From Rubellimicrobium arenae (GTDB lineage Bacteria; Pseudomonadota; Alphaproteobacteria; Rhodobacterales; Rhodobacteraceae), in NCBI RefSeq assembly GCF_017916275.1, contig NZ_JAFMST010000006.1, positions 186,001-250,000 of the forward strand: a stretch of DNA of 64,000 nt. The letters are read 5' to 3'. Under the pieces are notes generated by a model, which did not search any database, was not told where the DNA came from, and worked only from the letters and a program-made list of their open reading frames with translations. This document shows, piece by piece, positions 49,289-64,000 of this stretch; positions within the stretch are counted from its first letter, which is position 1; each line of letters starts with the position of its first letter. The translations under genes were made by a program, and so were the position numbers.

Positions 49289-49459
49289 GGATCCATCCAG
49301 GGCTTGCCTGGGCCTGAGCATAGATCAAAGCGGATCTCGGGCGAGAGGTCCGCGGCGGCCGGTCTTGCCTTATGGCTGAACCCTTTGCCCCCTTAAGGCA
49401 TTCCCAACCCGTCGCAGATGAGCGAGCCTTGCAAATGCAACCAGCGGGAGGAGAACGCC

Positions 49460-50731
49460 ATGGACCAGGTGTGCCGCGACCCGGCACGGGAGAGACGACC
49501 CACCCCGAGCATGACCTCCCTCTACGGCCGCAAGGGCTATCCCGCCGATACCGGCTCCCGCGACCTTCGCTTCGACTTCCTGCGCGGCTTTGCCATGCTG
49601 TCGGTGGTGGCCGCGCACCTCGAGTTCTTCTCCTGGTTCAACTTCCTGTTCTGGGAGCGGCTGGGTTTCATCTCGGCGGCCGAGCTATTCCTGGTGGCCT
49701 CGGGCCTGGTGCTGGGGCTCGTGAACCGCAAGGTGCTCGAGCGTGAGGGCATGGGGAGCGTGACGGAGCGGCTCTGGCGGCGCTCCTTCGTGCTGTGGCG
49801 GGCGCTGGTCGTGACGGTGATTCTGGTCATGATGATCCGAGGCTTGGGTCTCATCGACATGACGATGCTGACGGCCTTCACGGACCGCTTCTCCGGGCAG
49901 AGCTGGCCCATGGTGCCGGCCCCGGAGGTGCCCTGGCGCGACGACCTGGCGCTTATTCTCACCATGCGGGTGTCACCCCACCAGATCCAGATCCTGGGGC
50001 TCTACGTGGTCCTTCTGGCCCTGGCTCCTGCCGCCTTCTGGCTCCTGCAGCGTCGGCTTCTAGGGCCTTTCTTCGCCCTGACCTGGGGGATCTACTTCGC
50101 AGGCTGGCTCATGCCCGTGGACACGCCGCTCATGGCCATGCAGTGGGAGTTCGCCTTTCCCGTGATGATGTATCAGGTCTTCTTCACCCACGCCTTGGCG
50201 GTAGGCTACTTCCGGAGGGAGATCTCGGAGTGGCTGGCCCAGGCGTCACGGCGCATTCTCACAATCGCGGTTGGCGTCGCCCTGGCGCTTCTGTTCCTTA
50301 TCGCCGCGCAGACGACGCCCAACCCGTCCTTCCCGGCCTGGTCGCACCTGGCGTGGCTCCCGGCCGAGCAGTGGCAGGCGCTCTACGACACCTATCTGAT
50401 GAAGAAGCACCCCAGTCCCGTGCGGCTCCTCAACGTGGGCGCCTTCTTCGTCGCCTTTTACGCGGTCCTGACCTACTTCTGGGTGCCCATCAACAAGGCG
50501 CTGGGCTGGCTCCTGATCCCCCTGGGTGAGGCCAGCCTCTACGTGTTCCTGATGCACCTCGTCTTCATCGTGCTCATCGACCAGATCCCCGGTTACTTCG
50601 ACCAGATTCCCGACTGGGCCCACGTCTGGCCCGGGCAGATCTGGATCAACACGGCGCTCTACATCGGCACCATTCTCGGCTTGTGGTTGCTGGTGAAGAA
50701 CAAGGTTTTGTTCGGGGTTGTGCCACGATAG
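49460..50731 (+). CDS. OpgC-like membrane acyltransferase
   Basis: 423 aa with about ten helices. OpgC_C pattern: RDLRFDFLRGFAMLSVVAAHLEFFSWFNFLFWERLGFISAAELFLVASGLVLG in pieces, then VPWRDDLALILTMRVSPHQIQILGLYVV and a C-terminal FLMHLVFIVLIDQIPGY. OpgC succinylates osmoregulated periplasmic glucans; relatives transfer acyl groups to extracellular glycans. GGAGGAG lies just before ATG 49460. It opens the exopolysaccharide locus, so decoration of the glycan is likely (inference). Confidence 0.9.
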   Translation: MDQVCRDPARERRPTPSMTSLYGRKGYPADTGSRDLRFDFLRGFAMLSVVAAHLEFFSWFNFLFWERLGFISAAELFLVASGLVLGLVNRKVLEREGMGSVTERLWRRSFVLWRALVVTVILVMMIRGLGLIDMTMLTAFTDRFSGQSWPMVPAPEVPWRDDLALILTMRVSPHQIQILGLYVVLLALAPAAFWLLQRRLLGPFFALTWGIYFAGWLMPVDTPLMAMQWEFAFPVMMYQVFFTHALAVGYFRREISEWLAQASRRILTIAVGVALALLFLIAAQTTPNPSFPAWSHLAWLPAEQWQALYDTYLMKKHPSPVRLLNVGAFFVAFYAVLTYFWVPINKALGWLLIPLGEASLYVFLMHLVFIVLIDQIPGYFDQIPDWAHVWPGQIWINTALYIGTILGLWLLVKNKVLFGVVPR

Positions 50732-50858
50732 GGACTTGCGTGGCCCATTTGGCTCCCGATGAGCAACTCTGCCACAAGAACGATCATTGGCAGACGTCGC
50801 TTTGCCATTCCTCTCGTCTTGGCTGTGCCCTCCGCCGACCAGCAGCGAGAGGAATCGC

Positions 50859-52652
50859 ATGTCCACGACCGAAGGCACCCAGTCCATCGACCTCGTTCGG
50901 ATTGGCGAGCCGGCAACCACCGAAAGCTGGCTCGTGTCGGACTGGGCGGCGGGGCAGAGCACAATCATGGAATGGTCGCCTGAAAATGTGGTGGAGCAGG
51001 CAGACGGGAGCGTGACCTTCACGCTCGCTGCCGCGCCTGCGGGTTCCGCTTACGCCTACTGCGGCGGTGAGGTGCAGTCCTGCGAGGCGGCCTCGCTCGG
51101 CACCTGGACCTGGACGGCGCAGGCGCCGCAGATGGTGGACGGCGCCGTCTTCGGGATGTTCACCTACCGGGCCGACCACTTCAACGACCCCTGGATCGAG
51201 TTCGACTTCGAGTTCGTGGGCGCCAACACCACGCAGGTCCGGCTCAACATCCACATGGAGACGGCGACCGGCGAGCACGTCACCCTTGAGGACGCGAACG
51301 GGGCGCCGGTCATTGTCGACCTCGGCTTCGATGCCTCCCAGGGCCTCCACACCTATGAGATCACCGTCACAGGGACTGAGGCCATCTTCCTGGTCGACGG
51401 ACAGGTAGTCGGCCGCTTCGGGGCGGCGGACATGCCCTACGGCACTTGGACCACCGGCGACATGAAGGGATTCACCAATCTCTGGTGCGTGGACCCCTCT
51501 CTCGCGAGCTGGGCCGGGACCTACGGAGGTGAGGCGCTCACGGCGACGGTGACTGCCATCGACGTCCTCCCCGGCGATCTTGGCGACTTCGGTCCTGCGG
51601 TGATCGACCCTTCGATCAACGGGGATACCGGCGACAACATCCTGATCGGCACGGATGGCGACGACACTCTCGACGGCCGCGCCGGGAACGACGATCTGAC
51701 AGGTGGAACGGGAAACGACACCCTTCTCGGGGGTGACGGGGACGACAGCCTGAACCTGGACGCCGGAAGCGATGTCCTCGATGGCGGGGCAGGCCTCGAC
51801 TGGGTTCGGGCAGGCGGATCGACGGCGGCCACCCTGGACCTCGCTTTGACGGCCGTGCAGGACACCGGCTTCGGGCTCGACGCCCTCAGGAACATTGAGA
51901 ACGCTGCCGGCGGCACTGGGGGTGACAAGCTCTCCGGCAATGACGGCGCCAACACCCTGACGGGCGGCGCGGGGAACGACACGCTGATCGGCCGGGGCGG
52001 AGACGACCGGCTCGAAGGCGGGGATGGCAGCGACAGCCTCGAGCTGGATGCCGGCAACGATGTGCTCGACGGCGGCGCCGGAGCCGACTGGGTTGCCGTC
52101 ACTGGCTCCGCCGCCGCGACGATCGACCTGGTCAAGACCGGGGCGCAGGCTACCGGCTATGGCACGGACACCCTCACGGGCCTCGAGAACGCCGCTGGCG
52201 GCTCGGGAGCGGACAAGCTCTATGGGACCAACGGCGCGAATGTTCTCCAAGGGAACGCGGGCGATGATCTTCTCTATGGCCGCGGTGGAGCCGATACCCT
52301 CGCAGCCGGGGCTGGTAAGGACACGATCTACGGCGGCGTCGATGGTGTCCGGGACGTGTTCGTCTTCGCCTCTGTCGCGGACAGCCTTGTCGGCGCAAAG
52401 CGGGACTCGATCTACGACTTCGTCTCCGGGATCGACGACCTCGACCTGAGCGGGATCGACGCGAACGCTTCCCTTTCCGGAGATCAGGCCTTCGGGTTCA
52501 GCGGGACCACGGCCGCGGCCAACTCGGTCTGGTTCACCGCGAGCCGGTCCGAGGTCATCCTCAAGGCCGACATGAACGGTGACAAGGTCGCGGATCTCGA
52601 GATCCGCACCGACGGCCTCACATCGCTGAAGGGCGACGACTTCCTCCTGTGA
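50859..52652 (+). CDS. GH16 glycoside hydrolase with RTX calcium-binding repeats
   Basis: 597 aa. N-terminal GH16 domain (about residues 20-235): the catalytic ExDxE is visible as WIEFDFEFVG with Glu114, Asp116, Glu118; also GGEVQS and TYEITVTGTEAIFLVDGQVVG. From about residue 262 to 520 come repeated GGxGxDxL nonapeptides (GTGNDTLLGGDGDDSLNLDAG and so on) that bind Ca2+ and direct Type I secretion. No N-terminal signal peptide, as expected for T1SS. It probably trims or releases a beta-glucan-like polymer, as ExsH does for succinoglycan. Confidence 0.92.
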   Translation: MSTTEGTQSIDLVRIGEPATTESWLVSDWAAGQSTIMEWSPENVVEQADGSVTFTLAAAPAGSAYAYCGGEVQSCEAASLGTWTWTAQAPQMVDGAVFGMFTYRADHFNDPWIEFDFEFVGANTTQVRLNIHMETATGEHVTLEDANGAPVIVDLGFDASQGLHTYEITVTGTEAIFLVDGQVVGRFGAADMPYGTWTTGDMKGFTNLWCVDPSLASWAGTYGGEALTATVTAIDVLPGDLGDFGPAVIDPSINGDTGDNILIGTDGDDTLDGRAGNDDLTGGTGNDTLLGGDGDDSLNLDAGSDVLDGGAGLDWVRAGGSTAATLDLALTAVQDTGFGLDALRNIENAAGGTGGDKLSGNDGANTLTGGAGNDTLIGRGGDDRLEGGDGSDSLELDAGNDVLDGGAGADWVAVTGSAAATIDLVKTGAQATGYGTDTLTGLENAAGGSGADKLYGTNGANVLQGNAGDDLLYGRGGADTLAAGAGKDTIYGGVDGVRDVFVFASVADSLVGAKRDSIYDFVSGIDDLDLSGIDANASLSGDQAFGFSGTTAAANSVWFTASRSEVILKADMNGDKVADLEIRTDGLTSLKGDDFLL

Positions 52653-52847: not shown

Positions 52848-54206
52848 ATGGTCACGAAGATCATGGCCCTGGGGGCCTCGAACACCTATGGCATGTACGA
52901 GGACGCGACGTCGCCCGGCGGCTACCGCGGGCCGCTCCAATACATGCTGCAGTCCCAGGGCGTGAGCTATGACTTCGTGGGCCTTGACCGCGACGGTGCC
53001 ATCCCGGATGCCGAGCACAACGGCCATTCGGGCAAGAGGATCGACTGGTACACCAGCCCGGTGAACGAGGGCATCTACGACCGGAACGGCACCTACAGCC
53101 ACACGGTCAACAGTGGAACGCAGACCGCCGTCCAATACATGGTCGACCAGGCCGACCTGGTCTCGACCGACGTGGTCCTGCTGCTCGCGGGAACGAACAA
53201 CGTCATCGCCGGCGAGAGCGCCGAGACGATGCTCACGAAGATGGATGAGCTGCTCCGCCAGATCGTCGAGAGCCCCGAGAGTCCCAACGTTATGCTCATG
53301 AAGCTGCAGTATGTCGGCGGCGACTGGTGGGCGGACGGGGATACGTCCCGGACCAACAACGACACGATCCGGATCTTCAACGAGGGCTTGGAGACACTGG
53401 TCGCGACCAAGTACAACACGAAGGGCGTTACGCTCATCGAGAACGGCACCACGGAAGCCGACCTGTCCTCCGATGGCGTCCACCTCAGCGAAACGGGTTA
53501 CCGCAAGACGGCGGACGCGTGGTTCGACGCCCTGATGGCGAGTGGCGGTCTGGACCTGAAGTCGAGCCTCCCGCAGCTGGCGGCCACCACGGCCCGTGAG
53601 AGCGGGGCCTATGATGCTGTCAACGGCGTGGCGCTGACCGGCACCAAAAAGGCCGACAAGCTTACCGGGACCGCCAGCAACGATAAACTCGACGGCGGCG
53701 CGGGCGCCGACACGATGACCGGCCTTGCGGGCGATGACCTCTACACCGTCGACAACCGGAGTGACGTCGTGGTCGAGCAGGCCGGCGGCGGCGTGGACAC
53801 CGTCCGGACGACGCTCAATAGCTATGCCGCCGGCAGCCACATTGAGAACCTGACCTTCGCCGGGACTGGCAGCGCCACCCTCACCGGCAACGGCCTCGAC
53901 AACATCCTGCGCGGCGGCGCAGGGACGGACGTGCTCAACGGCGGCGCGGGCGCAGACCTCTACTGGGGTGGCGCGGGCGCGGACACCTTTGTGCTGCGCA
54001 AGGGCGAAGCCGCAGGCGACTGCGTGAACCTGGAGACAGGGGATCAGCTGCGCCTGGAGGGCTTCGGCCGTGGCGCCGTGCTGGTCGAGAACGGCGGGAC
54101 CGCTGCGTCAAACGACTGGTGCGTCTCCTACAATGGCGGGGTCGAGGTCCTCAAGATCAACGGGCGCGCGACTCTGACCGAAGGCACCGACTTCATCTTC
54201 GTCTGA
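52848..54206 (+). CDS. SGNH-family esterase with RTX repeats
   Basis: 452 aa. SGNH hydrolase at residues 1-225: block [12 protein letters not shown] (nucleophile Ser11), block [15 protein letters not shown], block [13 protein letters not shown] (Asp209, His212). C-terminal RTX/hemolysin-type repeats ([58 protein letters not shown]). No signal peptide, so Type I secretion is likely. Probably removes acetyl or other ester groups from the extracellular glycan. Follows the GH16-RTX gene. Confidence 0.9.
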
Positions 54207-54335: not shown

Positions 54336-55226
54336 ATGAAGCCCGTCACGAAAGCCATCTTTCCCGTCGCGGGTCTGGGCACCCGCTTCCTGCCCGCCAC
54401 CAAGGCGCAGCCCAAGGAGATGCTGACGGTCATCGACAAGCCGCTCATCCAGTTCGCAGTCGAGGAGGCCATCGCGGCCGGGGTGACGCAGCTCATCTTC
54501 GTGACGGGGCGCACCAAGCGCGCCATCGCGGACCATTTCGACGCCACGCCCGAGCTCGACCGCCTGCTGCGGGACAAGGGCAAGGGCGACGTGGCCGAGG
54601 CACTCCGGGGCATCATCCCCCCGCATGTCACCTGCATCTACATCCGCCAGCCGGAAGCGCTCGGTCTCGGGCATGCCGTTTATTGCGCGGCGCCCCTCAT
54701 CGGCGAGGATGAGGCCTTCGCCGTGCTTCTTGCGGACGACCTTATGCAGGGCGAGCCGCCGGTGCTGGCGCAGATGGCCGAGGTGCAGCGCGCCACCGGC
54801 AAGTCGGTCCTCGCGGTCAATCCCGTGCCCTTGGACGAGATCTCGAGCTACGGCGTCGTCGCAGCCCAGGATCCAGGCGAAGGTCGCTCAGCTGCGATCA
54901 CTGACATGGTCGAGAAGCCCCCGAAGGGGGAAGCGCCGTCCAACCTCGCCGTGGTTGGGCGCTATATCCTGACCGGGGACATCATGCGCATTCTCGCCAA
55001 GCAGGAGCCGGGCAAGGGAGGCGAGATCCAGCTCACCGATGCCATCAAGAAGCAGATCCCGACCACGGGCGTCGAGGCCTTCCGCTACCGCGGGCGCCGT
55101 TACGACTGCGGCTCCAAGATGGGCTACCTGGAAGCCACGATGGACATGGGTCTTGCCCATCCCGAATACGGGCCCCAGCTCCGGGCGCGCCTTCAGGGCA
55201 TGCTGGGCGGCAGCGCCGCCGCTTGA
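54336..55226 (+). CDS. galU: UTP-glucose-1-phosphate uridylyltransferase
   Basis: 296 aa, typical length. FPVAGLGTRFLPATKAQPKEMLTVIDKPLIQFAVEEA is the nucleotide-binding start; GLGHAVYCAAPLIGEDEAFAVLLADD, VEKPPKGEAPSNLAVVGRYIL and GGEIQLTDAIKKQI are GalU signatures. Makes UDP-glucose from UTP and glucose-1-phosphate, the donor for the GT2 in this locus. Convergent with the rsbW-like gene (22 bp between stops). Confidence 0.96.
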   Translation: MKPVTKAIFPVAGLGTRFLPATKAQPKEMLTVIDKPLIQFAVEEAIAAGVTQLIFVTGRTKRAIADHFDATPELDRLLRDKGKGDVAEALRGIIPPHVTCIYIRQPEALGLGHAVYCAAPLIGEDEAFAVLLADDLMQGEPPVLAQMAEVQRATGKSVLAVNPVPLDEISSYGVVAAQDPGEGRSAAITDMVEKPPKGEAPSNLAVVGRYILTGDIMRILAKQEPGKGGEIQLTDAIKKQIPTTGVEAFRYRGRRYDCGSKMGYLEATMDMGLAHPEYGPQLRARLQGMLGGSAAA

Positions 55227-55248: not shown

Positions 55249-55683
55249 TCAGGCGCGCGCCCGTCGCAGGAGCGTGAGCACGTTCTGTCCCTCGTCGCTC
55301 CGGTAGGTCACCTCGTCCATGACCGAGGCGATGAGCGACAGGCCCATCCCTCCTTCGGGGATGTCGAGCAGGTTGGCCGGATCGAAATCGAAGCGACTGA
55401 GGCCGGCGCTGGCCAGGGCCTCGCCCGGAATGGGCCTGCCCCAGTCGCAGATGCGCACCACCACGCCATCCGGGATCTCGGACGCCTCGATGCGAATGGG
55501 CCCGCCCTCGGGCCCGTAGCCGTGGCGGACCACGTTGGTGGCGGCCTCGACAAGGGCGAGTTCTACGTCACTCGCCCCCTCCGCTCCCAACTCCGGCTCC
55601 GCCAGGGATCGAACGACCTCGGAGATGGGGCCGATGTCCTCCAGGCTGCTGCGGTCGAGAACCCAAGTCCGCTCGCTGGCCAT
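55249..55683 (-). CDS. RsbW-like anti-sigma factor/serine kinase
   Basis: 144 aa HATPase_c_2 protein: N box SDVELALVEAATNVVRHGY, G1 ICDWGRPIP, G2 PEGGMGLSLIASVMDEVTY. RsbW-type proteins bind a sigma factor and phosphorylate their STAS partner on serine. Starts 11 bp after the STAS gene, so they are co-translated. The sigma factor or other target is not in the window. Confidence 0.93.
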   Translation of the reverse strand: MASERTWVLDRSSLEDIGPISEVVRSLAEPELGAEGASDVELALVEAATNVVRHGYGPEGGPIRIEASEIPDGVVVRICDWGRPIPGEALASAGLSRFDFDPANLLDIPEGGMGLSLIASVMDEVTYRSDEGQNVLTLLRRARA

Positions 55684-55694
55684 CGCGCCTCGCC

Positions 55695-56033
55695 TTAGCC
55701 CGCCAGTTGCGTGACGGCCGCATCAACGCTGGGGTGCAGCGCAAAGACACGGTCCATGCGGGTGAGCGAGAAAAGGCGCGTCACGGCCCCCTGTGCCCCG
55801 GCGATCGCGAGGGTGCCCTTGGAGCCCAGCCGCTTGACAGCTGAGACCAGCGCGCCGAGCCCTGAGCTGTCGAGGAAATCGGTCTTGGAAAGGTCCAGCA
55901 CGATCTGGCTGTGGCCGGCATCGATGTGGCGCAGAAGCTCCTCACGCAAGGCGGGCGCCCGGGCAGCATCAAGACGGGTCTCGCCCACGCGGAGGACCAG
56001 GATGTTGCCCTGAAGCTCGTCGGTGATGTTCAT
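55695..56033 (-). CDS. STAS-domain anti-anti-sigma factor
   Basis: 112 aa, one STAS domain: NILVLRVGETRLDAARAPALREEL, and IVLDLSKTDFLDSSGLGALVSAVK, where the DSSG serine is the phosphorylation site (about Ser56/57). When dephosphorylated it should bind the RsbW-like protein and free its target. Start ATGA overlaps the stop of the DUF3131 gene by four bases, a strong coupling. Confidence 0.93.
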   Translation of the reverse strand: MNITDELQGNILVLRVGETRLDAARAPALREELLRHIDAGHSQIVLDLSKTDFLDSSGLGALVSAVKRLGSKGTLAIAGAQGAVTRLFSLTRMDRVFALHPSVDAAVTQLAG

Positions 56034-57412
56034 CCGGGTTGCTCCTGCTGCTCTTCGGTGACGCCCGGCAGGCATCGGTTCTGTTGCGAGTCGTTCGTCT
56101 CCACCCAGGCCAGAGGATTCTCCACCAGCTCAAGGATCGGCCCGTTCAACTTGAAGTAGAGCGTCTCCAGCATGATGCCATTGTTGTTGGCAGTGTATTG
56201 CTGGATCGGACCGCTGCCGTTCTCGTAGATGCCTTCGACGTAGCCCAGCTCGGGGTCGAACTGTCCGGCAATGTGCTCGAAGAGCTGCTCGGTGTAGCCG
56301 GTCTCCCACAGGCCCCAGAGACCCAGAGCGCCCTTGAGCGCGACGGCCGAATGCTGCGGCACCCATTCACCCGTGTCGGTGATGGTGGCCCAAGGGCGGC
56401 CGTCGCTGAAGATCGTGTCATAGACGAAGTAGGGCGCGTCCAGGAGCTGATGCTCGGTCCGGGCGGTGAGGATGCCCGTATCTTCGAACCGGCGCACCTG
56501 CGCCTCGTAAATGTTCTGCGCGGCCCTGGCGATCCAGGCCGGGATGTCGTCACCGGAGGGATCCGCGAAGCCGAACTCGATGCCGAGAAGGGCGTAGCTC
56601 TCGGTCACCACATAGTTGTGGGCCCCGAGCACGCGAGGGTCGCGGCTGTCGTAGGGTACCTCCACGCCATAGAGCCAGATCGTGCTGTAGGGCTCGGGAT
56701 CGTAGGCGGCCTCCACGTTGAACCCCCAGAGCGCGAAGGCGGCCGCCCCATACTCCTCGTAGCCGAGCCGCCCCTCCTGGAGATAGAGCGTGGCCCCATC
56801 GGGACCGACCGAGGTGCCCTGCAGCACGCCCGCTTCGGTCACGATGTTACACCAGTTCCAGCGCCGGAGCGTGCGGCGCACCTCGGGCTGGAACTCGGGA
56901 TAGCGCTGCTCGACGACCTTGAGCCAGACCATGAGCCGCGCAATGTCGAGGGCCGAACAGCCGATCTCGCCGGGCTCGTTGGTGTAGGTCGTGGGGAAGG
57001 CCGTCTGGGTGTGATAGACCTTGTTCGGGCACTCGGTCCGGAAAAGCTGAAGGTGCTCGAGGGTGCCCAGGAGCCGGTCGAGCCGATCCCTGACCTCCTG
57101 CTCCTCGATCAGGCCCAGACCCTGGGCCGAGATCATCGCGGCCATGTAGGAGCCGGTGTCCCAGAGCGTCGTCGAGGGATAGGCGTTCACGGCGTTGGTG
57201 AAGCCGGTGTCCGGCTGCCAGTTGGCTTCGAAGTAGCGCCAGGCGTTCCGGGCCATCTCCATCTCGGCCTCGGTGAGCTCGCCATGGCGGGGCTGGGCGA
57301 TCGGCTCCACGGTAGACAGCGGCCGGTCGGGCCAGTGTTCGTCCGCCGAGGCCAGCGGGGCCGAAATGATGCCGAGGAGAGCCAGGAGCGCGGGACGGGC
57401 GGTCGTGGTCAC
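56030..57412 (-). CDS. DUF3131 protein, exported, coupled to the STAS gene
   Basis: 460 aa from GTG 57412 (GAGG eight bases upstream); the frame is open far upstream, but that part is antisense to the divergent DUF3131 gene. Signal peptide TTTARPALLALLGIISAPLASADE. DUF3131 core: EMARNAWRYFEANWQPDTGFTNAVNAYPSTTLWDTGSYMAAMISA, EIGCSALDIARLMVWLKVV, GRLGYEEYGAAAFALWGFNV. This has an alpha/alpha-barrel look with conserved acids (Asp in LWDTGSY). Predicted periplasmic glycan-processing protein (inference). Divergent partner at 57482 is also DUF3131. Confidence 0.88.
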   Translation of the reverse strand: MTTTARPALLALLGIISAPLASADEHWPDRPLSTVEPIAQPRHGELTEAEMEMARNAWRYFEANWQPDTGFTNAVNAYPSTTLWDTGSYMAAMISAQGLGLIEEQEVRDRLDRLLGTLEHLQLFRTECPNKVYHTQTAFPTTYTNEPGEIGCSALDIARLMVWLKVVEQRYPEFQPEVRRTLRRWNWCNIVTEAGVLQGTSVGPDGATLYLQEGRLGYEEYGAAAFALWGFNVEAAYDPEPYSTIWLYGVEVPYDSRDPRVLGAHNYVVTESYALLGIEFGFADPSGDDIPAWIARAAQNIYEAQVRRFEDTGILTARTEHQLLDAPYFVYDTIFSDGRPWATITDTGEWVPQHSAVALKGALGLWGLWETGYTEQLFEHIAGQFDPELGYVEGIYENGSGPIQQYTANNNGIMLETLYFKLNGPILELVENPLAWVETNDSQQNRCLPGVTEEQQEQPG

Positions 57413-57481: not shown

Positions 57482-58885
57482 ATGGCTTTCGGTGAACAAG
57501 GAACCCGCGTCCGGCGCCAGGGCCTGTTTGGCGGCTGCGTGGCTCTCCTGCTCGTCCCGCTCGCGGCTGCGGCCCAGGAGAGCGAGCGCCCGCCACCCAC
57601 CTCCAGCGCCGCCTTGGACACGCCCCTGACCGAGGAGGAGCTGGCCTGGGCTCAGGCGGCTTGGGCCTACTTCACCAGCACCGGAGACGCTCCGCCCGCC
57701 GAAGGCGCCCCGCCCCGGCCGCCCTTGGTTCCTGCTCGGGCCGGAGCGCCCATCGCGTCCGCCTGGTCGATGGGCGACCAGCTCGCCGCCACCCTTTTGG
57801 CGCACCGTCTCGGACTCATCGATGACCGCGAGTTCGACCAGCGGTTCACGCGCCTGCTCACCTACATCAGCACCATGCCACTCGCCTTTGGGGAACTGCC
57901 CAACCGCTTCTACAGCACCGACACCGGGGCCATGCTGGGCGAGGACTTCGCCGAGGGCCAGGCGGGCTGGTCGGCGGTGGACACGGGACGCCTGCTGATC
58001 TGGCTCAGGATCGCAGCGGAGCAGCATCCGGAGTTCGCCTCCTTCATCCGCAACGCGGTGGGCCGGTTCAGTGTCTGCGGCGCGATCTCGGACCAGTCCC
58101 GGCTTCAGCGGAGCCGGCCCGGCGAGAACGGGACCGAATACGCGGCCGAGACCTCGCGCGGCTACGACTCCTACGCCGTGCAGGGCTACCGGGCCTGGGG
58201 TCTGGACGCCCCCATTCCCCAGACGGGGCCGGCCAATGCGGAAATTGACATCGACGGCGTCCGCTTCCCCTTGGACGTGGATGTGACCTCGCAGGCGCCA
58301 ATCATGACCACGCCGCCTGCCTACATGGGGCTGGAGTTCGGCTTCCTGACTCTGGGCCCATTGTCCGGCGAGGAGGTGGCCGGCGGGCTGTCCTCAGGGG
58401 ACCTGATGACGGCCGTCTACAACCTCCAGGCCCTGCGCACCACAGAAGCAGGCCTCCCGACGGCTCGCGCCGACTTCCGCCGCTCGGAGGAGCCGTTCAC
58501 GCTGTATGGCACCATCCTCGCCAACGGCTATCCCTGGTCCACGGTCGATCCCGGGGGCACGCTCTATCCCCGGCTGGACCTTATCTCCACGCGGGCCGTC
58601 TTCGCTCTCGACGCGTTCTTCGACGGCGCGGTCATCGACACGCTGACTGCCCTCACGGCGGAGCTCCATGACCCGGCCGCAGGCTGGTATGAGGGGCGCT
58701 ACGAAGCAACGGGGGCCTACGAGGCGACCCGCACCAGCGCCACCAACGCCTTCGTGCTGGAGGCGATCGCTTATCGGCACCTTGAGGCGCTGTTCCCAAG
58801 GACAGCCTGGCCCGAGGAGCTCGGGCCAGCCGCCTCGGTCGGCGGGAGCTGCCGCCTGCCCCTGGCGGTCCCTGCGCCGACCTGA
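57482..58885 (+). CDS. DUF3131 protein, exported
   Basis: 467 aa. Signal peptide with cleavage near LVPLAAAAQ-ES. DUF3131 core: EEELAWAQAAWAYFTSTGD, SAWSMGDQLAATLLAHRLGL, QAGWSAVDTGRLLIWLRIA, and SRGYDSYAVQGYRAWGLD. More diverged than the other two: the WDTG acid region reads WSMGDQ. Divergent from the gene at 57412 (70-bp promoter region) and convergent with the one at 58905. Confidence 0.85.
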   Translation: MAFGEQGTRVRRQGLFGGCVALLLVPLAAAAQESERPPPTSSAALDTPLTEEELAWAQAAWAYFTSTGDAPPAEGAPPRPPLVPARAGAPIASAWSMGDQLAATLLAHRLGLIDDREFDQRFTRLLTYISTMPLAFGELPNRFYSTDTGAMLGEDFAEGQAGWSAVDTGRLLIWLRIAAEQHPEFASFIRNAVGRFSVCGAISDQSRLQRSRPGENGTEYAAETSRGYDSYAVQGYRAWGLDAPIPQTGPANAEIDIDGVRFPLDVDVTSQAPIMTTPPAYMGLEFGFLTLGPLSGEEVAGGLSSGDLMTAVYNLQALRTTEAGLPTARADFRRSEEPFTLYGTILANGYPWSTVDPGGTLYPRLDLISTRAVFALDAFFDGAVIDTLTALTAELHDPAAGWYEGRYEATGAYEATRTSATNAFVLEAIAYRHLEALFPRTAWPEELGPAASVGGSCRLPLAVPAPT

Positions 58886-58904: not shown

Positions 58905-60266
58905 TCAGGGCGTGGCGGCCGACGCGGTCTCGTCCCGCTCCTCGCCGCCCTGCGGATGCAGGATCGGCCCCAGCGCCCAGTAATGCAGCGCTTCCAGGAT
59001 CACCGCGTTGGTGTTGGCGGCGAGAACCGCATTGGGCTCGCCCAGGGACTCGTAGTGTCCCGTCTGCCAGCCGTTCGGCGTCTGCAGGTCCCAGACGGCG
59101 GCGGCGAGTTCTTCGGTGTAGGGCGTGCGGTAGAGCGCGTGCCAGCCCAGCGCTGCCTTGGTGCTGAGGATGCGGAACTCGTCCGCGTCCTCGCCGGTGT
59201 CCGTCTGCACCGCCCAGGGCTCGCCCTCGGCGACGACGGAGCTGAAGATGAAATGCGGGGCGCGGTCGAGGTGGTCCTCGGTGACGGCGGTCAGGATCCC
59301 CGTCTCGGCATGCCGCCGCTCCTGCGCCTGGTAGACGCGCCAGGCGAGATCCCGCAGGCGCGTGTCCCAGCCGAACTCGAGCGCCGCGAGGAGGTAGGGC
59401 TCGCTCAGGGTGTGGGCGTGGGCGCCGAACTCCTCAGGATCGCGCTGATCGACGGGCACGTCCAGGCCCGCCACATCAACCCAGTCCAGATGCGCCTCGA
59501 CGCGGGCGGCCTCACCCACGTCGTAGCCCAGAAGCGCGAAGCCCTTGGCCGAATACTGCTCGTAGCCGAGACGGCCTTCCTGCACGAGCTCGTAGCCCCC
59601 ACCCTCGCTGGGCAGGGCCCCGATCATCTCGCCGTCCTGAACCGCTGAGGCGAGGTCCCAGTGGTCCAGCACTGCGTCCACGCCTGCTGCGTGCTCAGGG
59701 TAGTGACGCATCAGCGCGTCAAACGGGACGAGGATGCGGCCGAGGTCCAGGGCCGACCAGCCGATCCCCGCCTCAGTCGGGGTGTTGGCGTAGTCGGTCA
59801 TGGCGAGGGTCGTCGTGTCGTAGGACTTGTTCGGCAGCCGCCCGTCGTAGAGCGGCAGGCGCGCGAGGCTGTCCAGGGCCTGCGTCATCCGCCGGTCGAA
59901 CTCCTGCCGGGGAAGGATACCCAGCCGCTCGGCCGCGATGGCGGCCAGCAGGTAGCCCCCCGTGTCCCACATGGTCGTGGCCGGGTAGCCTGCGACGGAG
60001 TTGACGAGCCCCGTGTCGGACTGGGTGTTGCCCTCGAAATAGGCCCAGGCGGCGCGCGCAGCCTCGAGCTCATCATCGCCGAGCGGCTCCAGCGGCGGAC
60101 GTGGCGCAGCCGCGTCCGGGTCGGCGGTCCAGGCAGACGCCGTGGACGTGCCCCCGGTTTCCCACTGCTCCAGCCAGTAGACCAGGGCAAAGGCGGAGAT
60201 CAGCGCCAGGAGGAAGACGATGTGCCCACGGGCGCTCCTCCAGCCGTTGTGGGTGGGGGTCGTCAT
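58905..60266 (-). CDS. DUF3131 protein with N-terminal membrane anchor
   Basis: 453 aa. Transmembrane segment at residues about 15-32 (HIVFLLALISAFALVYWLEQ), then DUF3131: ARAAWAYFEGNTQSDTGLVNSVAGYPATTMWDTGGYLLAAIAAERLGI, EAGIGWSALDLGRILVPFDALM and GRLGYEQYSAKGFALLGYDV. Its ATG overlaps the stop of the GT2 gene (ATGA), so it is the direct partner of the synthase. Likely periplasmic face of the synthase complex (inference). Confidence 0.88.
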   Translation of the reverse strand: MTTPTHNGWRSARGHIVFLLALISAFALVYWLEQWETGGTSTASAWTADPDAAAPRPPLEPLGDDELEAARAAWAYFEGNTQSDTGLVNSVAGYPATTMWDTGGYLLAAIAAERLGILPRQEFDRRMTQALDSLARLPLYDGRLPNKSYDTTTLAMTDYANTPTEAGIGWSALDLGRILVPFDALMRHYPEHAAGVDAVLDHWDLASAVQDGEMIGALPSEGGGYELVQEGRLGYEQYSAKGFALLGYDVGEAARVEAHLDWVDVAGLDVPVDQRDPEEFGAHAHTLSEPYLLAALEFGWDTRLRDLAWRVYQAQERRHAETGILTAVTEDHLDRAPHFIFSSVVAEGEPWAVQTDTGEDADEFRILSTKAALGWHALYRTPYTEELAAAVWDLQTPNGWQTGHYESLGEPNAVLAANTNAVILEALHYWALGPILHPQGGEERDETASAATP

Positions 60267-62098
60267 GCAGGAACTCCTTCCAGTTCGTCGTCACCTTCCT
60301 CCGGCTTCCAGAAGGCGGCAAAGATCATGCCGCCCATGGCCAGGATGTTGTTCGCCGCCCAGAACCCGTTGGCCACGATCCCGCCCAGCGTGTAGCCTTC
60401 CCGCCCCAGGGCCCAGGACAGGAGCCCGAACAGGAGCGCGAGCAGCGTCACGGCCACGACGGCGATCTGCGGCGCCACGAGCCGGGCGAAGTTGCCCGAC
60501 TGCCGCACCTTGGGCGTGACCGGGAACTTGATCTTCTCGCCCCGCGCCACGGTCCAGAGCGCGCGCAGGTTGATCGGGAAGAAGGAGATGTACCACAGCT
60601 TGGAGCGGTAGCCGGAGATGCCCCAGGTGCCCACCATGGCGGCGAACTCGTTGAGGATCAGGAACGGCAGGATATGGACGTAGAAGTCCGTCGTATAGGC
60701 CGCGACCGGCGCGATCCCCGTGGTGAGATACACGACCGGCGCCAGGAGGAAGACCACGTTCCACAAGGCGCCGAGATAGGACCAGAAGGTCGCGCCGTAC
60801 ATGACGCGCTGCCAGAACGACATCTTGCCGCGGAACAGCGGATTGTCGTGGAACAGGATGTCGAGGCTGCCGCCTGCGTACTTGAAGCGCTGCACCGTCC
60901 AGCTCAGCAGGTCCTGCGGTGACAGCATCTTGCACTCGATCCAGGGGTGCAGGACCGACTTCCAGCGCCGCACCGGGTCCCCGTGAAGCTCGATGGAGGT
61001 GTAGATGTCCTCGGAGACGTGGAACTTGTAGGGCGTGAACTCCTGCTCCTCCAGCGCGCCGGCCACCAGCGCGGACCGGACCTCCGGGCCAAGCTCCCGC
61101 TCCGAAGTGAGCTTGCGCACGGCCGCTGCGTCCTCTCCCGCGCGGCGCAGCACGTCATCGGCGTAGGCGCCCAGCGCCGCCTGCATGACTGCCTCGCGCC
61201 GGTGGATGGACCCCGCGCCGCAGCAGAAGGACGCGTTGGCCCAGTTCCGCCGCCGCAGGATGACCTGGTAGAACATCTCGGGGTCGTTGAGGAACGGGTC
61301 CTCGCCCACGCGGATGGGCCCAAACACCGCCTCCACCGTCCGCCCGATGCCACGGCCCACCGCGCCGAGCTTTCGGCTCATCGCTTCAGGCAAGGGCGTG
61401 CCCTCGGGCAGGTCATAGAACCACTGCGGTGTCTGCACCCAGGCCACGTCGGGGTCACGGAAATAGCCCAAGGTGCGCTCAAGCATCGTGGGCATCGGGC
61501 GCGTGTCGGCGTCGCAGATGATGATGAAGTCGCCCGCGCTCTGCTCCATGGCGTTGCGGAGGTTGCCTGCCTTGAAGCCCAGGTTGTTGTCGCGGGTGAT
61601 GTAGCCCACGCCCTCCGCCTCGGTCATGGCCCGCATCTCGGGGCGGCGGCCGTCGTCGAGGACGTGGATGCGCAAGTCGATCGCGTGGGGGTAGCGCATC
61701 GCCTTGGCGTCGCGCACGCCCCTCTGCACGATCTCCACATCCTCGTTGTAGGTGGTGAAGAACACGTCCACCACCACCGGCCTGTCGGGGGTGGCCGGGT
61801 CGTCCACGCAGTCGCGGATGGAGGCCGGAGGGGAGAGGACGGGATAGTCCTGCACGCGCCAGAGATTGATCGTGAACAGGATCAGCCCGACAAAGGCCAG
61901 GGTCTCCGCGAGCACCAGCGGGATCGCGAACCACAGCGCCTCCGGGTTGAGGCTCTCGGTCCAGCGCCACCAAAGATACCAAGCGCCCAGAACGAGGCTG
62001 ATGGTCGCAAGGTACTGATAGAGCAGCTCGCGTGCGGGGGAGTGCGGCAGGGGCTCCGGCGGAACGCGGCCCTCATACCGGTCAAAGTAGTAAGCCAT
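60263..62098 (-). CDS. Cellulose-synthase-like family 2 glycosyltransferase
   Basis: 611 aa from ATG 62098 with AGGAAG upstream. Two N-terminal helices, a GT2 domain (about 115-420) and five or so C-terminal helices. Motifs: VVDVFFTTYNEDVEIV (first Asp), ICDADTRP (Asp196, Asp198), SEDIYTS where cellulose synthases have TED (Asp364), and QRFKYAGG at Gln403 where the norm is QxxRW. Polymerises and exports a beta-glycan at the inner membrane, probably from UDP-glucose. The QxxKY variant sets it apart from BcsA, HasA and CrdS. Divergent from the SpoIIE-type phosphatase. Confidence 0.93.
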   Translation of the reverse strand: MAYYFDRYEGRVPPEPLPHSPARELLYQYLATISLVLGAWYLWWRWTESLNPEALWFAIPLVLAETLAFVGLILFTINLWRVQDYPVLSPPASIRDCVDDPATPDRPVVVDVFFTTYNEDVEIVQRGVRDAKAMRYPHAIDLRIHVLDDGRRPEMRAMTEAEGVGYITRDNNLGFKAGNLRNAMEQSAGDFIIICDADTRPMPTMLERTLGYFRDPDVAWVQTPQWFYDLPEGTPLPEAMSRKLGAVGRGIGRTVEAVFGPIRVGEDPFLNDPEMFYQVILRRRNWANASFCCGAGSIHRREAVMQAALGAYADDVLRRAGEDAAAVRKLTSERELGPEVRSALVAGALEEQEFTPYKFHVSEDIYTSIELHGDPVRRWKSVLHPWIECKMLSPQDLLSWTVQRFKYAGGSLDILFHDNPLFRGKMSFWQRVMYGATFWSYLGALWNVVFLLAPVVYLTTGIAPVAAYTTDFYVHILPFLILNEFAAMVGTWGISGYRSKLWYISFFPINLRALWTVARGEKIKFPVTPKVRQSGNFARLVAPQIAVVAVTLLALLFGLLSWALGREGYTLGGIVANGFWAANNILAMGGMIFAAFWKPEEGDDELEGVPA

Positions 62099-62229
62099 GG
62101 ACAGCTTCCTGTGGAGCCCAACGCTTTTGTTCATTGGACAATAGCTTGGAACCACAAGCGGGCCACACTATCAGCCCGCGAGTGCGTTCTCCGCATACCC
62201 TTCCGGCTTTCCTCATAGGGACGTCACCT

Positions 62230-64000
62230 GTGTTCACCATCCGCCAGACCCTGACCGGCCTTTTCCTGCTCCTGGGCCTCGGCCTGTGCGTATCGGTGGC
62301 GATCCAGACCTGGACCGCGTTCGAGCAGTATCGGGAAGCCCAGGACCTGACGGTATCCAACCTGGCGAGAGAGCAGCTCTCGCGCGCGGCGGTGGCCGTC
62401 GCAGAGGAGAGGACCGAAGCGTATCTGTCCCTGCTGGGGAAAGCGGGGGTCGAGCGGACTGCGACGGAGCTCAGCGGCGCAACCGATGCTGCCTTCGTCG
62501 AGGCCGCGGAGACGCTGGCCCGGATCAACGGCGAGACCAGGTCCGCCGTTCTGGAACAGATCGAGCGGACCCTGGACAGCCACCGGAACACAGCGGCCGC
62601 AGCCTGGCTCAGGACGAACCGGGAGGCCCGGACTACGGCCGCAGCCGGGCTCTTGGCCGGCTATACGGCGGTGATCGAGGACTTGGTGACCCTCCGGGTC
62701 TCCCTGCTGGCGCAGGAACACCCGACGGACGCCGGCACGGCCAACGCCTTCCAGCTCCGGCGTTACACCTCCATCCTGCTTGAAGCCCTCATGCAAAACG
62801 AGGCCGTGATCGGCGGCCTTCTGGCGGACCTGCCGCCGGCCGCCGAGCGCGCCGCCTGGGACCAGATCCGCGGCAACTCGGAGCGGGCCGAGCTGGCCTT
62901 CGATCTCATCACCAACAGGTCCGCGGTCGAGGATCGGCCACTCCGCCTCGGGCTGGCCTCTCTGACCGTGGCCTATGCCGACCGTTACCGTCCGCTGGAG
63001 CAGGAACTGATCGCGGCGCTCGCCGACCCGGACCCGGCGGGGGACTCCATCGACTCCGAAGCCACCCGCCTGCTCTGGGACACACGGCAGATCACGCGCA
63101 CCGGCGCCGACCTGCAGGAGAGCCTGTTCACCTATTCCCGGGATCGGCTGGCGCAGCAGCAAAGGCGAGCCTCATGGCTGGCGCTTCTCTGGCTGGGCAC
63201 GCTTCTTATCGGCCTCGGCGCCGTCGCGCGGGGTGCGTGGGTGGTGAGCCGCCGGGTCATCCAGCCTTTGGGTTCCTTGCGCGACAGCATGCTTGCTCTG
63301 GCCGGTGGCGACCTCCAGGTGGCTCTGCCCGAGCGCTCCCGCAAGGACGAGGTGGGCGCCATGTCCGATGCCCTGCGGGTCTTCAAGGCCAACGCCATCC
63401 GCCGGGCCAGGCTGCAAGAGGAGCGCGTGGCTCTGCACGAAAAGCTTCAGGCCGCGCACCAGCAGCTCCAGAAGGACCTGGAAGCCGCATCCGCAGTCCA
63501 GCTCTCTCTTCTTCCTGCGGCCGCACGGCTGGGGGGCGTCCGGTTCACCGGGCGGCTCCAGCCGTCTCACTTCATCTCCGGCGACACCTACGACGTCTTG
63601 CGCCAGCCGAACGGACCCGTCCACTTCTTCCTGGCCGACGTGGCTGGGCACGGTGCGGCCGCGGCCCTCGTGTCGGTGGCCTCGCGCTATGCCGCCGCCC
63701 AGGCGATTCTGCAGCGCCGGGCGGGCGACAGCCTCGCCCACACCATGGCCATCCTAAACGACGACTGGCCCGAGCACCTGCCCTACTTCACCGTGATCAT
63801 GGGCGAGTTGCGCCCCGAGGAGGGGCGGGGAAGCCTTGTTCAGGCGGGCCATCCGCCTCCAGTCCTCCTGCGACGCTCCGGAGCCGTCGAGATGATCGGC
63901 GAGGGTGGATTGCCCATAGGGGTCATCCGAGGGGCCAACTTCGATGAGATCGCCTTCGGCTTCGAGCCCGGTGACCGGCTCCTGATCTACTCCGACGGGC
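62230..64000 (+). CDS. Membrane SpoIIE/RsbU-type serine phosphatase (partial)
   Basis: At least 590 aa, open to the right edge. GTG start at 62230 with AGGGA upstream. N-terminal helix at residues 6-25 (LTGLFLLLGLGLCVSVAI), a helical periplasmic sensor of about 290 residues, a second helix at 315-340 (LLWLGTLLIGLGAVARGAWVV), HAMP to about 390, a coiled coil, then the PP2C/SpoIIE domain: HFISGDTYDVL, FFLADVAGHGAAAALV (Asp471), AGHPPPVLL, LLIYSDG at the edge. Dephosphorylates a STAS protein in partner switching; the STAS at 55695 is the obvious substrate. Confidence 0.93.
   Translation, partial: MFTIRQTLTGLFLLLGLGLCVSVAIQTWTAFEQYREAQDLTVSNLAREQLSRAAVAVAEERTEAYLSLLGKAGVERTATELSGATDAAFVEAAETLARINGETRSAVLEQIERTLDSHRNTAAAAWLRTNREARTTAAAGLLAGYTAVIEDLVTLRVSLLAQEHPTDAGTANAFQLRRYTSILLEALMQNEAVIGGLLADLPPAAERAAWDQIRGNSERAELAFDLITNRSAVEDRPLRLGLASLTVAYADRYRPLEQELIAALADPDPAGDSIDSEATRLLWDTRQITRTGADLQESLFTYSRDRLAQQQRRASWLALLWLGTLLIGLGAVARGAWVVSRRVIQPLGSLRDSMLALAGGDLQVALPERSRKDEVGAMSDALRVFKANAIRRARLQEERVALHEKLQAAHQQLQKDLEAASAVQLSLLPAAARLGGVRFTGRLQPSHFISGDTYDVLRQPNGPVHFFLADVAGHGAAAALVSVASRYAAAQAILQRRAGDSLAHTMAILNDDWPEHLPYFTVIMGELRPEEGRGSLVQAGHPPPVLLRRSGAVEMIGEGGLPIGVIRGANFDEIAFGFEPGDRLLIYSDG

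Follow-up and report, generated by a model that had tools for sequence, protein, structure and literature searches.

A complete partner switch stands within a conserved glucan gene cluster and probably gates glucan synthesis

Within the 64,000-nucleotide stretch of Rubellimicrobium arenae DNA analysed here (the window), genes for a phosphatase, a STAS protein and a kinase flank those for a BcsA-like glycosyltransferase and three DUF3131 proteins. The minus strand carries the gene for the switch kinase, a HATPase_c_2 protein of the RsbW/SpoIIAB-like serine kinase type (55249 to 55683; PF13581, E 2.9e-24), that for a STAS protein resembling RsbV, SpoIIAA and SypA (55695 to 56033; PF01740, E 3.1e-21, and above the cut-off of TIGR00377), and that for D1, an exported DUF3131 protein (56030 to 57412; PF11329, E 3.8e-116), which begins with a GTG codon at 57412 followed by a signal-peptide-like region. 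A second exported DUF3131 protein, D2, is encoded on the plus strand (57482 to 58885; PF11329, E 8.5e-71) and a third DUF3131 protein, D3, on the minus strand (58905 to 60266; PF11329, E 4.7e-138). The D3 gene overlaps by 4 nt the 3' end of the gene for the family-2 glycosyltransferase, which is BcsA-like, without PilZ (60263 to 62155, minus strand; PF00535, E 1.6e-15), and the true start of which is probably the ATG at 62098. Divergent from the latter is the gene for the RsbU-like membrane phosphatase, with HAMP and PP2C (SpoIIE) domains (62230 to 64000, plus strand, ending at 64224 outside the window; PF07228, E 4e-40, plus HAMP).

In addition to these genes, the plus strand carries a second copy of GalU, the UTP-glucose-1-phosphate uridylyltransferase (54336 to 55226; TIGR01099, 337.9 bits against a cut-off of 326.8), which adjoins the switch genes and occupies the same position in three Rubellimicrobium congeners. 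Further along lie genes for an OpgC-like glucan succinyltransferase (49418 to 50731, plus strand; PF10129, E 3.8e-40), also found in the cassettes of Pantoea, Chimaeribacter and Paracoccus, and for a GH16 glucanase with RTX repeats (50787 to 52652, plus strand; PF00722, E 3.5e-15), which recurs in the loci of relatives and is a probable accessory of the cassette. A GDSL hydrolase with RTX repeats is encoded near GalU (52848-54206), both RTX proteins probably being secreted enzymes of this locus that modify glucan. By predicted gene content, a full RsbU/V/W-type partner switch sits within a glucan cluster comprising the BcsA-like glycosyltransferase, the three DUF3131 proteins, the second GalU, OpgC and the GH16 enzyme.

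The best PDB match of the kinase is RsbW (6m36, E 2.8e-6), and the protein carries both the N-box Glu and Asn residues and the nucleotide-binding motif by which partner-switching HATPases are recognised: E46, N50, H54 and G114 are invariant in 82 of 82 homologues, and G112 is present in 81 of the 82. The STAS protein is of a single domain and has a phosphorylatable Ser in the D-S-S/T-G motif, the phosphosite Ser56 lying within FLDSSGLGAL; among unfused homologues, Asp55 is conserved in 86 of 86 and a Ser occupies position 56 in 85 of 86. The catalytic, metal-binding Asp positions of the PP2C domain, which mark it as a SpoIIE phosphatase, are invariant in 78 homologues. Since the catalytic residues of the kinase and phosphatase are conserved together with the STAS phosphosite, the switch should be live. 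Furthermore, the phosphatase is the sole strong match in a genome search for SpoIIE phosphatases, and the RsbW-like HATPase is the only stand-alone one in the genome, the remaining HATPase matches falling in open frames of at least 400 residues. A model based on four sequences (pLDDT 86.9) predicts an entirely helical sensor region for the phosphatase (62296-63216 in the window). The only PDB structures that this region matches at E below 0.001 are those of NasR, a nitrate-responsive antiterminator (4akk, E 4e-4), which is a weak lead towards a nitrate- or nitrite-like ligand.

An earlier note on this DNA had drawn attention to the STAS and kinase genes as a pair linked to D1, to which it described them as translationally fused. 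The junctions themselves are as it reported: the D1 stop codon (TGA, 56032-56030) and the STAS start codon (ATG, 56033-56031) share an ATGA, and 11 nt separate the end of the STAS gene at 55695 from the start of the HATPase gene at 55683 on the minus strand. The same 4-nt overlap and 11-nt gap are seen in R. mesophilum. 'Translationally fused' is nevertheless too strong a term for separate proteins whose genes overlap by 4 nt; the STAS gene has a Shine-Dalgarno-like AGGAG of its own, 8 nt 5' of its ATG, so that termination-reinitiation is possible, not required. A scan for sigma-70-like promoters, which is of little value for this organism, returned 0 between 55100 and 62400 against 0.5 expected. 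The pair and its D1 neighbour were, moreover, only part of the arrangement, as the third gene of the trio, the HAMP-PP2C gene at 62230, had been overlooked.

From the overlap it had been concluded that D1, as a periplasmic glycan protein, is coupled to the STAS/HATPase switch for fixed stoichiometry. The overlap and the gap are real and recur in R. mesophilum, but of the 101 STAS genes in related loci, 86 have a PP2C phosphatase gene upstream and 2 a DUF3131 gene, the D1-STAS order being confined to the window and R. mesophilum. It is PP2C, not D1, that overlaps STAS in two congeners, R. roseum (G007) and a further one (G003), and a search for D1 gave no match in four other congeners. Among the 86 PP2C-STAS junctions, 25 have an ATG at -4 or -1, and in some vibrios PP2C overlaps STAS by more than 20 nt. 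The D1-STAS arrangement is thus largely absent in close relatives, an outcome that the earlier note had itself named as speaking against its reading; with the AGGAG of the STAS gene also counting against it, coupling for fixed stoichiometry appears highly improbable, and it was rejected on the gene order in relatives. As judged from this gene order, the overlap reflects a local rearrangement that put D1 in the slot usually occupied by PP2C, and it probably gives co-transcription and nothing further. The overlap is peculiar to two relatives; what persists, in many proteobacteria, is the link of the three-protein switch to a glucan cluster.

The extent of this link was surveyed in 80 loci with the closest glycosyltransferases from public genomes and in about 75 further stretches that came from surveying the family and the phylum for DUF3131, four named genomes having been entered twice (identical rows in the tree). 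When the count is limited to loci with flanks of 6.5 kb on both sides, all three switch genes are present in 76 of the 77 loci of the window-type glycosyltransferase clade. The exception, G272 (L115, L154), has PP2C beside the glycosyltransferase, and its STAS-HATPase pair adjoins a DUF3131 gene on a different contig. The linkage spans alpha- and gammaproteobacteria and Desulfobacterota, and the earlier suggestion that glycan and switch genes are joined by more than simple co-location holds in nearly all loci of this clade.

In Vibrio, Photobacterium and Ferrimonas, PP2C is usually followed by STAS, nucleotidyltransferase, HATPase, glycosyltransferase and three DUF3131 genes, and the order PP2C-STAS-nucleotidyltransferase-HATPase-glycosyltransferase-DUF3131 is found in many gammaproteobacteria; many Rhodobacteraceae have PP2C, STAS, HATPase, DUF3131, glycosyltransferase and DUF3131. 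Alphaproteobacterial loci with the switch, including the window, are mostly without the nucleotidyltransferase-LbH gene. Plasmids of Pantoea, Chimaeribacter and Paracoccus carry the cassette too. The phosphatase of many relatives is instead a receiver-PP2C protein, frequently encoded close to a hybrid histidine kinase; the receiver domain was found in the vibrio protein that was scanned and in a Chimaeribacter record. Individual loci show further variants: the STAS-HATPase pair is duplicated in Salipiger mucosus (L067, 4473-4999), tandem SpoIIE domains lie upstream of STAS in G575 (L142, 914-2606), and in Chimaeribacter arupi a globin gene stands between the third DUF3131 gene and a hybrid response regulator (L113, 18140-18589). 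In one proteobacterial family, f77 (L158, L160, L162), the glycosyltransferase gene has a stand-alone STAS gene upstream of it, as its direct neighbour in L158 and L160, with neither kinase nor phosphatase within the fetched stretch.

A second class of DUF3131 protein, lower-scoring and in open frames of about 830-1000 aa (L166-L190), occurs near a different, weakly matching glycosyltransferase. The partner switch is present in 0 of 26 loci of this type, which rules out DUF3131 as what brings the switch.

The output of the switch was sought among neighbouring genes, and neither a local sigma factor nor a local diguanylate cyclase was found in most of the 100 clade loci. A classical anti-sigma arrangement, in which the HATPase would hold an alternative sigma factor encoded elsewhere until STAS frees it for transcription of the glucan genes, draws on the homology of the HATPase to RsbW/SpoIIAB and of STAS to RsbV/SpoIIAA, as well as on a genome set of Sigma70_r2 proteins that we take, from their length, to be RpoD, two RpoH-like proteins and six more. 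A precedent is the HsbR/HsbA partner switch over RpoS in Pseudomonas aeruginosa (PMC6482189). However, a sigma factor gene is near in only 3 of the 100 clade loci and absent from 97, counts that rest on the RpoD, RpoH1 and ECF4-6 queries, the ECF1-3 and RpoH2 queries probably being in the wrong frame. Nor is there any SigB/F/G-type sigma factor above cut-off in the genome (the best TIGR02980 match, at 135 of 234 bits, is a protein of RpoD length), so that neither of the marks of an anti-sigma/anti-anti-sigma system proper, a nearby cognate sigma factor or a SigB/F-type sigma factor in the genome, was found. The HATPase falls far under the RsbW equivalog cut-offs (47.1 of 145 bits and 41.1 of 155 bits; NF003144 and TIGR01924). 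In addition, as described below, STAS persists where kinase and phosphosite are gone, fused to a biosynthetic protein. An anti-sigma function is, on balance, unlikely.

A diguanylate cyclase encoded elsewhere in the genome is the other route to be weighed, as in BgrUVW-BgrR of Sinorhizobium meliloti, which serves mixed-linkage beta-glucan, and in SiaABC-SiaD and HsbA-HsbD of Pseudomonas. The precedents nearest in function lead to a diguanylate cyclase and to exopolysaccharide or biofilm (PMC7647112; PMC8457831), and the R. arenae genome encodes about seven GGDEF proteins. Set against this, the 335-kb contig of the locus has no GGDEF gene, a diguanylate cyclase (GGDEF) gene is near in just 4 of the 100 clade loci, and Pfam finds no PilZ domain in the glycosyltransferase; control through such an enzyme is regarded as quite unlikely.

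The strongest clue to the target of the switch comes from STAS proteins that have become fused and lack the phosphosite, as read from their sequences. In a second, derived group of 23 loci, mostly from roseobacters and with a more distant glycosyltransferase, HATPase and PP2C genes are found in 0 of 23 fetched stretches, several of the genomes encoding a SpoIIE protein elsewhere. In 17 of these 23 loci (L121, L124, L125, L134, L132, L031 and 11 others) STAS forms the N-terminal part of a nucleotidyltransferase-LbH protein, and Pfam confirms STAS together with nucleotidyltransferase and/or hexapeptide domains in six of the fusions. The fused STAS domains retain Ser56 in 0 of 17 and Asp55 in 2 of 17, compared with 85 of 86 and 86 of 86 for the unfused proteins. 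Furthermore, the nucleotidyltransferase catalytic motif is destroyed in 7 of the 17 fusions, which suggests that these seven are pseudoenzymes; with the motif gone, the fused protein may serve as a scaffold or regulator. The glycosyltransferase tree, which was built quickly and contains several long branches and unresolved forks, places the fused loci in a nested position next to G491, which keeps the unfused order STAS, nucleotidyltransferase, HATPase. The simplest reading would be that loss of the switch left STAS attached to the biosynthetic machinery in a non-phosphorylatable form, although a fusion of neighbouring genes may also arise without function.

As for the machinery itself, the glycosyltransferase matches BcsA in the PDB (E 5e-32), and at 218 bits against the CelA cut-off of 699 (TIGR03030) it falls outside the UDP-forming cellulose synthases BcsA/CelA; it has QRFKY in place of the QxxRW motif of BcsA. 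Pfam and NCBIfam give no functional family for DUF3131 other than the family name, and a search of the open-access literature yielded passing mentions alone of any DUF3131 locus. Structural comparison of the AF2 model of D1 (pLDDT 88.5) gives Z 35.8 (rmsd 2.9, 355 residues) for 8wy1, which is the cyclization domain of a cyclic beta-1,2-glucan synthase, and Z about 32 for endo-beta-1,2-glucanases; Foldseek E values for this fold group run from 6e-11 to 2e-8, and phmmer gives a weak match to 8wy1 (E 0.004). D1 is accordingly predicted to be an (alpha/alpha)6-barrel that belongs, by shared fold, with the GH144/GH189 group, and the modelled DUF3131 fold and OpgC would fit a processed, possibly periplasmic, glucan.

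Taken together, the switch probably gates glucan synthesis, STAS acting on the biosynthetic machinery and not on a sigma factor. We favour, with some reserve, the view that the complete partner switch is a standing part of the glucan locus and that unphosphorylated STAS turns synthesis on through that machinery. The membrane HAMP-PP2C phosphatase would sense an envelope signal; the HATPase kinase would phosphorylate STAS at Ser56 and the phosphatase reverse this, so that unphosphorylated STAS would switch glucan synthesis on and the kinase would switch it off. In Vibrio fischeri, SypA, encoded in a polysaccharide locus, is active as Ser56Ala and inactive as Ser56Asp (PMC4517449), and by analogy the unphosphorylated STAS protein is expected to be the active form here. 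STAS would most likely bind the biosynthetic machinery in the cytoplasm, either the BcsA-like glycosyltransferase, which is without PilZ, or the sugar-nucleotidyltransferase, while D1 to D3 and OpgC would process the glucan outside the cytoplasm. As the glycosyltransferase has no recognisable PilZ domain, STAS may replace control by c-di-GMP; and with the nucleotidyltransferase-LbH gene mostly missing from the alphaproteobacterial loci that have the switch, its target there may be the glycosyltransferase, GalU or another protein. A tentative extension is that STAS takes the part played by c-di-GMP and PilZ in cellulose synthase, activating by direct binding either the glycosyltransferase or a scaffold that resembles a nucleotidyltransferase, and that the roseobacter fusions are always on, some of them as pseudoenzyme scaffolds. 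What the sequences show is the presence of the three switch genes, the conservation of their catalytic residues and of the linkage, and STAS fusions that have lost the phosphosite; we infer in which direction the switch works, that STAS binds its target directly and that the product is a glucan.

Partner switches over polysaccharide or biofilm are already known (SypA/SypE, BgrUVW-BgrR, SiaABCD and HsbR/HsbA). In the widespread cassette described here, natural fusions hint at a partner of STAS, which becomes testable through a single residue, Ser56. DUF3131 gains a modelled fold kinship to beta-1,2-glucan-processing enzymes and a tie to a specific synthase.

Parts of what is probably the same cassette have been listed in enterobacterial genomes. 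Klebsiella pneumoniae block 3b includes a cellulose-synthase-like gene, OpgC, an anti-sigma factor/antagonist and three DUF3131 proteins (PMC12974863), and Salmonella SGI3 a cellulose-synthase-like gene, OpgC, an anti-sigma factor/antagonist and a serine phosphatase regulator (PMC3401170), both with other regulatory genes as well. In the excerpts of these two papers the components appear as gene lists, without the partner switch, order, function or fusions, and are not handled as a regulated unit; a search of the open-access literature likewise found no description of the switch, order or fusions of the cassette.

Among characterised systems, Pseudomonas aeruginosa SiaABCD resembles the window locus in having a membrane HAMP-PP2C protein, a kinase and a STAS-like partner that control biofilm (PMC7647112). 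Its SiaC, however, is a DUF1987 protein and its output the diguanylate cyclase SiaD, whereas Pfam gives only STAS (PF01740) for the window protein and the 335-kb contig holds no GGDEF gene. In Sinorhizobium meliloti, BgrU, BgrV and BgrW (PP2C, STAS and kinase) control a mixed-linkage beta-glucan, but act through the diguanylate cyclase BgrR, as cited in two papers (PMC7647112; PMC8457831), and no such gene lies near the window locus. SypA/SypE is similar in that a STAS protein with a regulatory Ser56 is encoded, together with kinase and phosphatase activities, with a polysaccharide locus, its output not being known as a sigma factor (PMC4517449). The two differ in that SypE is a single response regulator with both kinase and phosphatase activity, while separate genes serve here, and in that syp has other polysaccharide genes, as compared with one BcsA-like synthase and DUF3131 proteins. 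Finally, the Bacillus RsbU/RsbV/RsbW and SpoIIE/SpoIIAA/SpoIIAB switches share the same three families and the conserved kinase and phosphosite residues with the window locus, which, in contrast to them, has no sigma factor gene and is held in fixed linkage to the genes for a glucan.
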